From Candidatus Purcelliella pentastirinorum (lineage in GTDB: Bacteria > Pseudomonadota > Gammaproteobacteria > Enterobacterales > Enterobacteriaceae), in contig NZ_CP110496.1 in NCBI RefSeq assembly GCF_028748785.1, positions 419,448-483,447 of the forward strand: 64,000 nt of DNA. The letters run 5' to 3'. Shown piece by piece: positions 19,780 through 32,421 of this stretch (the stretch's first letter is position 1; the number at the start of each line of letters is the position of its first letter). A program made the position numbers and the translations under genes. The notes below the pieces were generated by a model, which was not told where the DNA came from, made no database searches, and saw only the letters and a list, made by a program, of their open reading frames with translations.

Positions 19780-20372
19780 ATAATATAAATTAAAACCTCA
19801 TAAACTTTCCATTTTATCAATCTAAAATTAAATACATATCTTACATAAATAAAGAAAATTAAAATATCGAATCTTATTATATAATAATAATTATAAAATA
19901 TAAACAAAAAATATTAATTAAAATATAATAAACAAAAAAAAATATTAATTTATCAAAAATAATAAAAAAATCAATTAAATCTATATAATAAAAATATTCT
20001 AATTATAAAAATTTAAAAAAATAAAAATAATAATTTATTATATCTTAGAAATATATTTATATACAAAAAAAAAAATCTACAAAACAAAAAAAAACTCATA
20101 TATATTATAATTCAATAAAATTTTTTTAACAATAATTTTTTTATTAAATATTAAATTTAAAAACAAACATATATTTCATGTAATAAAAAAAATAATTAAC
20201 TTAACAATATAAAAATAAGAATAAAATTTAAATATATTAAAATATAAATGTATCATAAAATAATATGTAATATAAAAAATAAAACCACAAAACTAAAAAT
20301 ATAACAATCAAAAAAAACATTAAAAAACAAAAATTCAACTATAAAATATGATATGATAAAATTATTCTGAAA
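19780..20372. other. Long gene-free spacer left of tRNA-Pro
   Basis: About 590 bp between the start of ybjG and tRNA-Pro, the longest featureless stretch in the window. It is close to pure A/T with scattered A-runs, no open frame with protein character, no GC-containing hairpin and no tRNA- or rRNA-like sequence. Together with the repeats to its right it forms a 1-kb non-coding region, unusual in such a compact chromosome, which fits a replication origin zone. Confidence 0.6.
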
Positions 20373-20446
20373 CGGTGAGTAGCGCAGCTTGGTAGCGCAA
20401 CTGGTTTGGGACCAGTGGGTCGGAGGTTCAAATCCTCCCTCGCCGA
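20373..20446 (+). tRNA. tRNA-Pro(TGG)
   Basis: Folds as a complete cloverleaf: acceptor CGGTGAG pairs with CTCGCCG (one T-G wobble), the D-arm contains AGCGCAGC TTGGTAGCGC, the anticodon stem CTGGT/ACCAG encloses TTTGGGA with anticodon TGG, and the T-arm is GGAGG TTCAAAT CCTCC. The discriminator is A at 20446. The 3' CCA is not encoded (the DNA continues AAAA), so a CCA-adding enzyme is needed; the E. coli counterpart proM encodes CCA. By its modified U34 this tRNA could read all four Pro codons. Confidence 0.95.
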
Positions 20447-20534
20447 AAAAAAATATATATTACCATAATATGTAAAATAGTTATAAACAAATTACTAACA
20501 ATTAATAATCAAATATCAATAATAAATAACAAAC

Positions 20535-20631
20535 TATTAACAATTATTGATGAGTTATTAACAATTATTGATGAGTTATTAACAATTATTGATGAGTTAT
20601 TAACAATTATTGATGAGTTATTAACAATTAA
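20535..20631 (+). repeat. 21-bp tandem iterons with DnaA-box-like cores
   Basis: Four perfect copies of a 21-bp unit (20,535-20,618) followed by a 12-nt partial fifth copy. A diverged copy precedes them near 20,491. Each junction creates TTATTAACA, at 20,555, 20,576, 20,597 and 20,618; the first copy has CTATTAACA at 20,534. This matches the DnaA box TTATNCACA except at position 6 (C to A). The 21-bp period is two helical turns, putting the motifs on one face of the DNA. Position before mnmG matches oriC in E. coli. Binding by DnaA is inferred, not shown. Confidence 0.75.
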
Positions 20632-20689
20632 TACACATAACAAAGATATATAGCTTAAAAAAAAATAAGAGTTATCAACAACAAATAAC

Positions 20690-20735
<46 letters not shown>

Positions 20736-20798
20736 TATATATATAAATTAATAAGATACATATATGGTTAGAAAAATATTAATAATTAAGTAAAAAAA

Positions 20799-22661
20799 AT
20801 GATTAAAAATAAATTTGATGTAATTGTAATTGGAGGAGGACATGCTGGAATAGAAGCTTCATTATCATCATCTAAAATGCAATGCTCAACATTACTAATA
20901 ACTATAAATAGAAATAAGATAGGAACTCTTTCATGTAATCCATCTATAGGTGGTATAGGCAAGGGACACTTAGTAAAAGAAATAGATGCTTTAGGAGGTA
21001 TAATGGGGTATGCAACTGACAATGCTGGGATAAATTTTAAAATTTTAAATTCTAGCAAAGGTTATGCTGTAAGAGCAACAAGAGCACAAGTAGACAGATA
21101 TATATATAAAAAAAACATAATTAATAAACTAAAAAAACAAAGAAAATTAACTATCATACAAGGTATTGTAAAAAAATTAATCATAAAAAATTATTCTATT
21201 CAAGGAATAATTATAGAAAATGGTACAAAATTTTATTCTAAATCAGTAATAATAACAACCGGAACTTTTTTAAATGGTAAAATCCATATAGGAAGTTGTA
21301 ATTATAATGCAGGTAGATTTGGAGAAAAATCATCTATACTTTTAGCGGAATACTTAAAAAGTTTATCGTTTAATATTAAAAGATTAAAAACAGGTACTCC
21401 ACCACGTATTGAAAAAAAATCAATTAATTTTAATAACTTAAAAATACAATATGGTGATTCTCCTATACCATTTTTTTCTTTTATAAACGATGACAAAAAA
21501 GAAATTAAACAAATTCCATGTTATATAACCCAAACTAATGAAAGAACACATGAAATCATAAGAAACAACATACATAAAAGTTCTATTTATAGTGGTAATA
21601 TTAATAGCCTAGGACCTAGATATTGTCCATCAATAGAAGATAAAGTAATTAAATTCTATAATAAAAAATCCCACCAGATATACTTAGAACTTGAAGGATT
21701 TAATAATAATATTGTCTATCCTAATGGAATATCAACAAGTTTACCAAATAACATTCAATTAGATATGATTCGTTCCATAGAGGGATTAGAAAAAGCAAAT
21801 ATAATTTATAATGGATATGCAATAGAATATGATTTTTTTGATCCAATTGATTTAAAACCAAATTTAGAAAATAAAAACATAAAAGGATTATTTTTAGCAG
21901 GTCAAATAAATGGAACTACTGGTTATGAAGAAGCAGCTGCGCAAGGTATACTGGCTGGAATTAATTCTGCATTATATAAATATAACTTAAAACCATGGAT
22001 TCCTAGACGTAGTCAATCTTATATAGGGGTTATGGTAGATGATTTATGTACGAATGGAATAACAGAACCATATAGAATGTTTACATCTCGTGCTGAATAT
22101 CGGCTTCTTTTGAGAGAAGATAATGCCGATTTAAGATTAACTAATATTGGTAGAAAATTTGGTTTAGTAAATGAAAAAAGATGGATTAAATTTAATAATA
22201 AATTAAAAGATATAGAATTAGAAAGACAAAAATTTAAAAATACAATAATTCCATTAAATTTAAATATTGAAAATAAACTTAAAATTAAAATAAAAGAAAA
22301 TACTACTATAGAAAAATTATTAAAAAGACCAAATATAACAATTAATCAAATATGTGATTTAAAAGAAATTAATCTGAAAATCAATAATATAAAAGCAGCT
22401 GAACAAGTTGAAATTCAAACAAAATATAAAGGATATCTTATTAGACAAGAAAAAGAAATAACACGACAATTAAATAGCGAAAAAATTCTAATTCCTAACA
22501 ATATAGAATATGATAAAATGTCTGGTTTATCTAATGAAATAATTTTTAAGCTTAAAAAATATAAACCTTATTCAATAGGACAAGCATCACGTATTTCCGG
22601 TATAACACCAGCCGCAATATCTGTTTTATTAATTTATCTTAAAAAATTAAAATTCATATAA
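20799..22661 (+). CDS. mnmG: tRNA uridine 5-carboxymethylaminomethyl modification enzyme MnmG (GidA)
   Basis: FAD-dependent partner of MnmE; together they install the cmnm5 group on U34 of tRNAs reading NNA/NNG codons, important in a genome dominated by A-ending codons. The 620 aa (E. coli 629) start with the dinucleotide motif [14 protein letters not shown], and contain [18 protein letters not shown], the family signature [30 protein letters not shown] and the C-terminal helical domain ending [18 protein letters not shown]. Codon choice is A-ending (GTA, GGA, ATA), the lagging-strand type, although atpB just downstream on the same strand uses T-ending codons. rsmG and atpI, which separate it from atpB in E. 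coli, are missing. Confidence 0.96.
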
Positions 22662-22741
22662 AATTTTAAAATATAAAAATAATAGTTTATAATATATTTC
22701 ATTAAAATATATTTTATTTAAACATTTTAGAAAAAATTCTC

Positions 22742-22770
22742 TTGCATTTTTTTTTTCACTTTTTTAAGAT
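22742..22770 (+). promoter_or_regulatory. Possible promoter for the atp operon
   Basis: TTGCAT (22,742) and TAAGAT (22,765) are separated by 17 bp, 44 bp before the atpB ATG. They match sigma-70 boxes at 3/6 and 4/6 positions. It is the only place in the 152-bp mnmG-atpB gap with a few G/C bases. Suggestive only. Confidence 0.3.
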
Positions 22771-22777
22771 TAAATAA

Positions 22778-23920
<1,143 letters not shown>

Positions 23921-31284: not shown

Positions 31285-32421
31285 TTATTTATCCTTAATT
31301 TTACGATTGTTGACACGACATGTATTATAAGCTCTTTGATCTATTATATTATTTAGTTTATTAATTTTTTTTTTGTTAATATTAATTTTTTTTTTGTTAA
31401 TATTAATTTTTTTTTTGTTAATATTAATTTTTTTTTTGTTAATAGGTAACATAAATATGTTTTTGTTATTACTTATAACATTAGATGTTTGTTTTAATAT
31501 TTTTTCCATAGTTTCGATATATATTTTTTTTTTTTCTATCTTAGGTGATATTCTATATATTGATAGAATTTTATTGAAGTGTAGCATATCTTTTTTTGCT
31601 CTATTGATAATATTATTTTTATATATTTTGGATTTATTTATGATATCTACAATTTTATAATTTGTTTTTTTTTCTAATTCTTTTGCGTAATATATTGCTT
31701 TATTTATGCATATTTCTTTATTTTTTTTTGCATTTTTAGTAGCATTAAATAATTTTTTTATTTTTTCAGGAAGGTTAATATATTTAAAAGTAATTTTTTT
31801 TATTTTAATGCCAACATCTTCTTTTATAAAAAAGATATTTATTTTTTTTGAAATTGAATTGATAATTTTATTATCATTTATAGATATTATTTTTTTAGTA
31901 TTATAATTTATTATTGTTTTTAATAAGATTGATTCTATAGAGTTTTTTATATAATTTTTTATGTTTTTTATTGTATATAGATATTTTTTTGGATTTATTA
32001 CGTTGTATTGTGTAATCATTTTTACATTTATTATATTTTTATCAGAAGTTATTTCTGTTTGTGAAATACTTATTTTGTATATTTTTGATCTATTGAATTT
32101 TAATATTTTATCTATTGGTATTATTTTCCAATGTATTCCAGAATTTATTAATTTATTAAATTTACCTAATCTAATTAATATCCCTTTTTCATTTTTTTTA
32201 ATTATATAAAATCCATTAATTATCCATATACTTAATATTAATATTATTAAAGTTTTTATTATTTTTTTTTTGTTATTTTTGTATTTTTTTTTTGTTATTT
32301 TAATTTTATTTTTTATATATTTTAATAATAAAAATATATTGTTTTTTTCTTTACTCAAAAGATTTTTTTTATTTTCATTATTTCCCCATGGATTTTTAAT
32401 ACTTAAATATTTCCATGTCAT
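31285..32421 (-). CDS. hflK: FtsH protease modulator HflK
   Basis: Partner of HflC in the HflKC-FtsH complex. 378 aa (E. coli 419). The N-terminus MTWKYLSIKNPWGN retains the E. coli W-N-x-P-G-N-N-like start, then a basic linker, a membrane helix (residues about 55-75) and the SPFH core starting KKNEKGILIRLGKFNKL, with SGIHWKIIP. The C-terminal tail contains four exact copies of a 7-residue unit rich in Lys, Ile and Asn, encoded by a 21-bp tandem repeat. In E. coli hfq and hflX lie between miaA and hflK; both are gone. Confidence 0.9.
   Translation of the reverse strand: MTWKYLSIKNPWGNNENKKNLLSKEKNNIFLLLKYIKNKIKITKKKYKNNKKKIIKTLIILILSIWIINGFYIIKKNEKGILIRLGKFNKLINSGIHWKIIPIDKILKFNRSKIYKISISQTEITSDKNIINVKMITQYNVINPKKYLYTIKNIKNYIKNSIESILLKTIINYNTKKIISINDNKIINSISKKINIFFIKEDVGIKIKKITFKYINLPEKIKKLFNATKNAKKNKEICINKAIYYAKELEKKTNYKIVDIINKSKIYKNNIINRAKKDMLHFNKILSIYRISPKIEKKKIYIETMEKILKQTSNVISNNKNIFMLPINKKKININKKKININKKKININKKKINKLNNIIDQRAYNTCRVNNRKIKDK
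31361..31444 (-). repeat. 21-bp tandem repeat, four copies, inside hflK
   Basis: Four perfect 21-bp units (31,361-31,444), each with ten consecutive T on the plus strand. They encode repeats of INKKKIN in the C-terminal tail of HflK. The period is a multiple of three, so copy-number change keeps the frame. The family's C-terminus is normally low complexity, so the repeat is probably tolerated, not selected. Confidence 0.9.

Follow-up and report, generated by a model that had tools for sequence, protein, structure and literature searches.

The genome of Candidatus Purcelliella pentastirinorum is a single contig of 483,447 bp with a GC content of 21.8%, and the window, the whole stretch of 64,000 nucleotides analysed here, corresponds to its bases 419,448–483,447. 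An array of short direct repeats lies in the spacer between a tRNA gene, which forms the upstream border, and mnmG, with genes read as atp genes after mnmG (Table 1). Enterobacteria are expected to have oriC in the spacer that precedes mnmG, which is where the array is found. We compared the locus with that of a sister species (G001; 479,855 bp), whose MnmG is 90% identical and which is the sole congener in the comparison. Its spacer is bordered by a tRNA-Pro gene with the anticodon TGG, as identified by ARAGORN. On the other side of mnmG, the interval up to the next gene, read as atpB (22661–22814), contains no ORF of at least 80 residues. A tblastn search of the genome gave no match for atpI, and the matches for rsmG-like sequences were weak and partial only.

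Table 1. Features of the putative origin and of the initiator gene (window positions, except for the last row)
Feature	Position	Strand	Basis or remark
tRNA gene, upstream border of the spacer	20373..20446	+	Rfam tRNA, 65.4 bits
Outlying pair TTATAAACA (20481) and TTACTAACA (20492), 11 bp apart	20481..20500	+	Box scan
Array of 21-bp units, CTATTAACA (20534) and TTATTAACA (20555, 20576, 20597), with weaker TTATTGATG interleaved	20534..20617	+	Would replace tau2-I1-I2 of E. coli oriC
Last array box, TTATTAACA	20618..20626	+	Position equivalent to R5M; its start lies 54 bp from that of the R1-like box
Spacer, 45 bp	20627..20671	.	Occupies the position of the E. coli IHF-binding region, which measures 46 bp
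R1-like box, TTATCAACA, adjoining the opening element	20672..20680	+	Orientation of E. coli R1
(TAT)14, 14 consecutive KAK or DnaA-trio-like units, probable unwinding element	20694..20735	- (T-rich)	13 bp from the R1-like box
mnmG	20799..22661	+	ORF of 620 aa; homologue search; borders oriC in E. coli
DnaA domain I remnant	L001 2008-2250 (this genome ~65840-66016)		PF11638 at the DNA level; other frame than domains III-IV

The tandem array covers 20535–20630 with a period of 21 bp, 4.6 copies and a match of 100% in TRF, which confirms the perfect 21-bp repeats and partial copy upstream of mnmG described in an earlier note on this DNA. TTATTAACA is found without mismatch in four successive copies, one per two helical turns, and the first copy reads CTATTAACA. 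Along the array, TTATTAACA, A, TTATTGATG and AG follow each other in alternation, so that 9-mers are placed at a pitch of 10–11 bp. The 21-mer, with up to three mismatches, occurs at five places in the genome; three exact matches and one with a single mismatch belong to the array, and one with three mismatches lies at 250,126. A control pattern read backwards gave four genomic matches at places that were not printed, and these are taken as the array itself because the 21-bp unit is nearly symmetrical. The cluster of TTATTAACA is unique in the whole genome, with four in 250 bp and at most two elsewhere on either strand. All of the boxes deviate from the E. coli consensus TTATNCACA by at least one base, the change from C to A at position 6, and matches to TTATNNACA occur over the window at chance frequency (43 seen, 45.45 expected); thus, it is only their phased clustering that counts as evidence.

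A second perfect 21-bp array with another unit is located at 31359–31444 (4.1 copies) inside an ORF read as hflK, where it gives a 7-residue protein repeat. The sister also carries a perfect 21-bp array of another unit, with 5.1 copies at 282017–282124 of its genome. The genome is therefore not quite as poor in repeats as the earlier note had it, and since a second perfect array exists, the perfection of the repeats does not by itself speak for selection. Two further readings of the repeats were rejected. First, one forward frame is open through the 21-mer and could encode a 7-residue repeat, but the 11-bp units of the sister shift this frame. Second, promoter-like hexamers are present in the repeats, but as a sign of a transcriptional element their number is near chance (11 found; 7.4 in shuffles, with a standard deviation of 2.7).

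In the same interval, the sister shows ten TTATTAACA boxes in one orientation at a pitch of 11 or 21 bp. Its array consists of nine boxes at successive distances of 11, 21, 21, 11, 21, 21, 11 and 11 bp, with the R1-like box 54 bp further. The alignment gaps inside the array between the two species measure 11 and 22 bp, and the distances from box to box in both species deviate by at most 0.14 turn from whole turns at 10.5 bp per turn. The perfect TTATNNACA boxes vary between the species only at position 5, at which the consensus is N, and all of them have A at position 6. This variation is seen in the outlying box, TTATAAACA here and TTATCAACA in the sister, and in the box beside the TAT run, TTATCAACA here and TTATTAACA in the sister. 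The outlying pair of the sister, TTATCAACA and TTACTAACA, is likewise 11 bp apart. The weaker 9-mers are exceptions to the box rule, namely CTATTAACA in this genome, TTACTAACA in both species and the interleaved TTATTGATG and TTATTGATA.

The position of the array in the chromosome also fits an origin. The detrended GC skew of the whole genome has its minimum at 439,796, which is window position 20,349 and about 0.2 kb from the array, and its maximum at 236,310. In the sister, the minimum at 293,017 is about 0.1 kb from the array and the maximum is at 12.6 kb. The array thus lies at the skew minimum, where an enterobacterial oriC is expected, in both species. The dnaA gene is found next to dnaN at about 65 kb of the contig, which puts it about 108 kb away from the array on the assumption of a circular contig. 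A genome scan for clusters of at least three TTWTNNACA in 300 bp listed none beside dnaA. The earlier note had suggested a re-modelled origin, and it had named a skew minimum elsewhere, a box cluster next to dnaA and loss of the array in close relatives with an unchanged skew as findings that would speak against this. None of the three was found: the minimum coincides with the array in both congeners, dnaA has no listed cluster, and the array is kept and even lengthened in the one sister compared, so the suggestion is supported. The second-largest TTWTNNACA cluster of the genome, a looser one with four in 300 bp, lies on the minus strand at ~254062–254128, ~18 kb from the skew maximum.

We then compared the layout with the oriC of E. 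coli. In the orientation of mnmG, R1 (TTATCCACA) of E. coli is at −176, and TCATTCACA, which we take to be R5M, is at −231. The T-rich strand there carries the units TAT-TAG-GAT, 10 bp beyond R1. The box order is taken from PMC5742627, which also describes that the left half alone carries opening and that its boxes are 2–4 bp apart. The symbiont locus shares several features with this left half (R1, IHF region and R5M-tau2-I1-I2) and its unwinding element: it adjoins mnmG, its one-way boxes point to the opening element, and KAK units follow just past R1 on the T-rich strand. The spacing between R5M and R1 is 54 bp in both symbiont species; it could be scored in 37 of the 108 other regions and is 55 bp in all 37. 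A region is scorable when a perfect TTATCCACA has an R5M-like 9-mer with at most one mismatch 40–69 bp upstream. The full set of 110 upstream regions consists of 30 mnmG loci, our two species included, and the best 80 related loci with at most 60% identity, from which records close to the window may be missing, and ten further genomes of the homologue search, which gave no locus, fall outside it. The regions are not independent, as some are from one genus or perhaps one genome and several are cut short by contig ends. When the 45-bp spacer is aligned with that of E. coli, its score is reached by 0 of 2000 shuffles, which keep single-base composition only, and by 9 of 2000 genomic windows of matched composition; the corresponding counts for the sister spacer are 16 and 215. 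This likeness is suggestive only, because the sister alignment is weaker.

The two origins also show distinct differences. A perfect TTATNCACA is absent from the 400 bp upstream of mnmG in both species, the best being TTATNAACA with one mismatch, and A stands at box position 6. No inverted right half is seen here: allowing one mismatch to TTATNCACA, the minus strand of the 400 bp holds no box in this genome and a single one, TTATTCATA, in the sister. GATC is also absent from the 400 bp in both species, whereas E. coli has 14 in 378 bp. The array is amplified, and 14 KAK units stand against three in E. coli. In a TRF comparison that took in the regions with a GC fraction below 0.32 or a TRF score of at least 70, the sister scores 282 and our genome 192, followed by 86 (again our region) and 77 (another genome). 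We consider that the array, which stands in the place of R5M-tau2-I1-I2, is better read as an oriC left half of E. coli type that has been amplified.

The TAT run next to the R1-like box is also present in the sister, with 17 units and a gap of 11 bp. Neither genome has another perfect trinucleotide run of at least seven units, and no KAK run is longer in either, the next having six units. In the last 600 bp of the 108 other regions, the longest KAK run has at most four units. Beside a perfect TTATCCACA, which occurs in 62 regions, three consecutive KAK units are found in 36 and four, the maximum, in five. A basal unwinding system of the Bacillus subtilis type consists of a box followed within 16 bp by at least three NAN trinucleotides on the strand that meets DnaA (PMC8287927), and both species show this arrangement with gaps of 13 and 11 bp and 14 and 17 units, respectively. 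The gap agrees with the described peak at 10–13 bp (PMC8287927). The trios here are all 3′-TAT-5′ and not mostly 3′-GAT-5′, number 14–17 and lack a GC-rich gap. The oriC of Thermotoga maritima likewise has phased DnaA boxes beside trinucleotide repeats (three TAG) that are needed for opening (PMC10316083), although its box sequence is another one and the lineage is distant.

These features bear on what the repeats are for. The array could titrate DnaA or regulate transcription of mnmG without a part in opening; this would agree with the promoter-like hexamers, and stronger boxes can absorb DnaA (PMC12342881). However, the promoter-like sites are near chance, and boxes that share one orientation and keep a set distance to the R1-like box and the TAT run are consistent with the unwinding half of oriC, so we regard this explanation as quite improbable. 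A stronger objection grants that the site is an origin and holds that its repeats are neutral slippage in an AT-rich genome, with few boxes sufficient and their copy number functionless. Because a perfect 21-bp array occurs in another gene too, the hflK-like ORF, and the sister has its 5.1-copy array at 282,017, slippage may have supplied the repeats and might explain them fully. Buchnera and Blochmannia turneri are also said to have two consensus boxes only (PMC4389277), which would agree with few boxes being enough. Nevertheless, the boxes are intact except for position 5, the length steps are 11 and 22 bp, both the direction of the boxes and the 54 bp to the R1-like box are maintained, and no other perfect trinucleotide run matches the TAT run in either genome. 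We consider it unlikely that slippage is the whole explanation.

The initiator itself is reduced. The dnaA product has 344 residues and comprises domains III and IV only (PF00308 and PF08299), with no match to PF11638, the domain I profile. A remnant of domain I is located upstream in another reading frame, and both species have an in-frame TAA there that corresponds to Glu21 of E. coli. Since this codon is common to both, the loss of domain I probably predates the species split. As DNA, the remnant still scores above the PF11638 cut-off, at ~30 bits in both species, and part of it might still be made separately. The dN/dS value is 0.12 for domains III–IV, 0.14 for mnmG and 0.38 for the remnant (55 codons). 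The ATPase and box-binding domains that DnaA-dependent initiation requires are thus kept under purifying selection, and the helicase contact of domain I is missing. Lys178, Val211, Arg227, Lys243, Arg245, Arg285, Leu290 and Arg334 are conserved. Arg281 and Arg399 are replaced by Lys in both species, and this genome also differs at 431 and 433. Arg399, which recognises the TTA end of the box through the minor groove (PMC5742627), is Arg in 8 of 8 other DnaAs aligned. Among the best 120 of 6664 DnaA homologues, only the one of this genome is shorter than 430 residues; two others without a PF11638 label have 520 and 494 residues. E. coli DnaA without domains I and II opens oriC in vitro and is not viable (PMC5448010; PMC5742627).

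Many of the helper proteins also appear to be missing, where absence means no match at the thresholds used. In tblastn with the E. coli proteins (E 0.01), dam, seqA, fis, diaA, hda and dnaT gave no match in this genome, and the ihfA and ihfB queries matched the HU gene only; HU may act in place of IHF. These losses, like that of domain I, set the system apart from E. coli. The dnaB, dnaC, dnaN and HU genes are present. The sister has the same set except for a diaA match of 33% identity, which may be another SIS-domain protein. PriA is far below the cut-off in both genomes, and PriC was not found in either. No DnaA match at all was obtained in 3 of 13 genomes searched, all three reduced, so complete loss of DnaA is the commoner course among those genomes.

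The earlier note compared the array with iterons, which are typical of plasmid origins, and a plasmid- or phage-type iteron origin might have been captured by the chromosome and be served by a Rep protein. The 21-bp direct repeats are indeed iteron-like. We scanned for three copies of the box at 21-bp spacing, a design that misses arrays at other spacings. Three TTATNAACA occur in 3 of 392 family genomes (our genome, the sister and G111), and three TTATNNACA in 2 of 369 class genomes (our genome and G475). The backwards pattern, used as a control in both scans, gave two matches in our genome, taken as the near-symmetrical array, and none in all others. G111, a reduced genome, provides a genuine plasmid-like case, since its contig 5 (L159 945–1035) carries 21-bp TTATAAACA repeats beside a Rep3 gene. 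This set shares with our array the 21-bp direct repeats that hold the TTATNAACA 9-mer; however, the Rep3 initiator (PF01051), with three matches in G111, has no match in this genome or in the sister. A blastn search of 20455–20799 against 72,556 plasmid records gave three weak partial matches with a best E value of 0.03, and the layout fits the left half of E. coli oriC. On the Rep3 search, the plasmid search and the layout, capture of an iteron origin seems highly improbable, the iteron comparison is not supported beyond the repeat pattern, and the array is most likely part of chromosomal oriC.

Taken together, the region ~20481–20735 is probably the functional oriC of this reduced symbiont, descended from an E. 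coli-type origin of which the left half alone is recognisable, with a grown array and TAT run and a DnaA of domains III–IV. The evidence is comparative and comes from two species of one genus. We infer that this oriC has been remodelled to let DnaA assemble by domain III contacts only. In such a mechanism, the short DnaA would bind the TTATNAACA boxes by domain IV and would stack head to tail via domain III, with no need for domain I, DiaA, Fis or IHF. The stacking is suggested because the boxes run one way and are one or two turns apart, and with gaps of 1–2 bp in one direction, the contacts of domain III may therefore suffice. The oligomer would extend past the R1-like box and capture the T-rich (TAT)n strand, and the duplex would open there. 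DnaC would then bring DnaB, a step for which the contact known for domain I is missing. Tandem duplication would have enlarged both the array, in whole-turn steps, and the TAT run, and this growth may have been kept because opening then needs fewer helpers.

A bolder proposal is that the origin of this lineage no longer needs DnaA domain I or IHF, Fis, DiaA, Hda and SeqA/Dam. The domain III–IV DnaA, on a multiplied one-way set of TTATNAACA boxes specific to the lineage, would open a trio tract of 14–17 units, DnaC would hand over DnaB with no domain I contact of the kind needed in E. coli, and the change of the box, the growth of the array and the loss of domain I would have co-evolved. The replacement of Arg399 by Lys in both species is tied to this co-evolution. 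We put the proposal forward tentatively, as possible but not favoured. The comparison covers one genus, so domain I loss and array growth are seen to coincide only once.

A related course has been followed in vitro. Selection on an AT-rich minichromosome increased the consecutive KAK motifs from three to five, with seven in a designed origin, and moved the tau2-I1-I2 boxes towards consensus, which slowed amplification and gave an advantage when DnaA is scarce (PMC12342881). The evolved origin and that of the symbiont share extra consecutive KAK units and a changed tau2-I1-I2 region. The symbiont origin differs in being natural, in having 14–17 units instead of 5–7, in the lack of a detected IHF gene and in boxes that have increased in number and have not approached the E. 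coli consensus. The parallel is only partial, because the selected boxes moved towards consensus and slowed amplification; pressures related to those of PMC12342881 may still have acted here. A natural enterobacterial lineage seems changed in the same two oriC elements as in the in vitro selection (PMC12342881).

The locus bears on how far a DnaA origin can be stripped and on how insect symbionts that keep dnaA start replication, a subject for which the Blochmannia paper asks for more work after finding two consensus boxes only in B. turneri (PMC4389277). The DnaA of the symbiont has lost a domain that is essential in E. coli (PMC5448010). The pair is a small origin and initiator with which the role of domain I, and the loading of DnaB without it, could be addressed. 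In titles and abstract openings of open-licence PMC articles, we found no earlier description of this origin or this DnaA, and none for Purcelliella with dnaA. In G475, three TTATCCACA on contig 30 (L202) follow each other every 21 bp with linkers that differ, and the ORFs on either side are read as dnaN and dnaA; two-turn phasing is thus also seen at a chromosomal origin-like spacer. Finally, G019 (L052 1–90), a small-genome relative with a full-length DnaA, shows TTATACACA and TTATCCACA 55 bp apart, followed by GATAATAATAAC.
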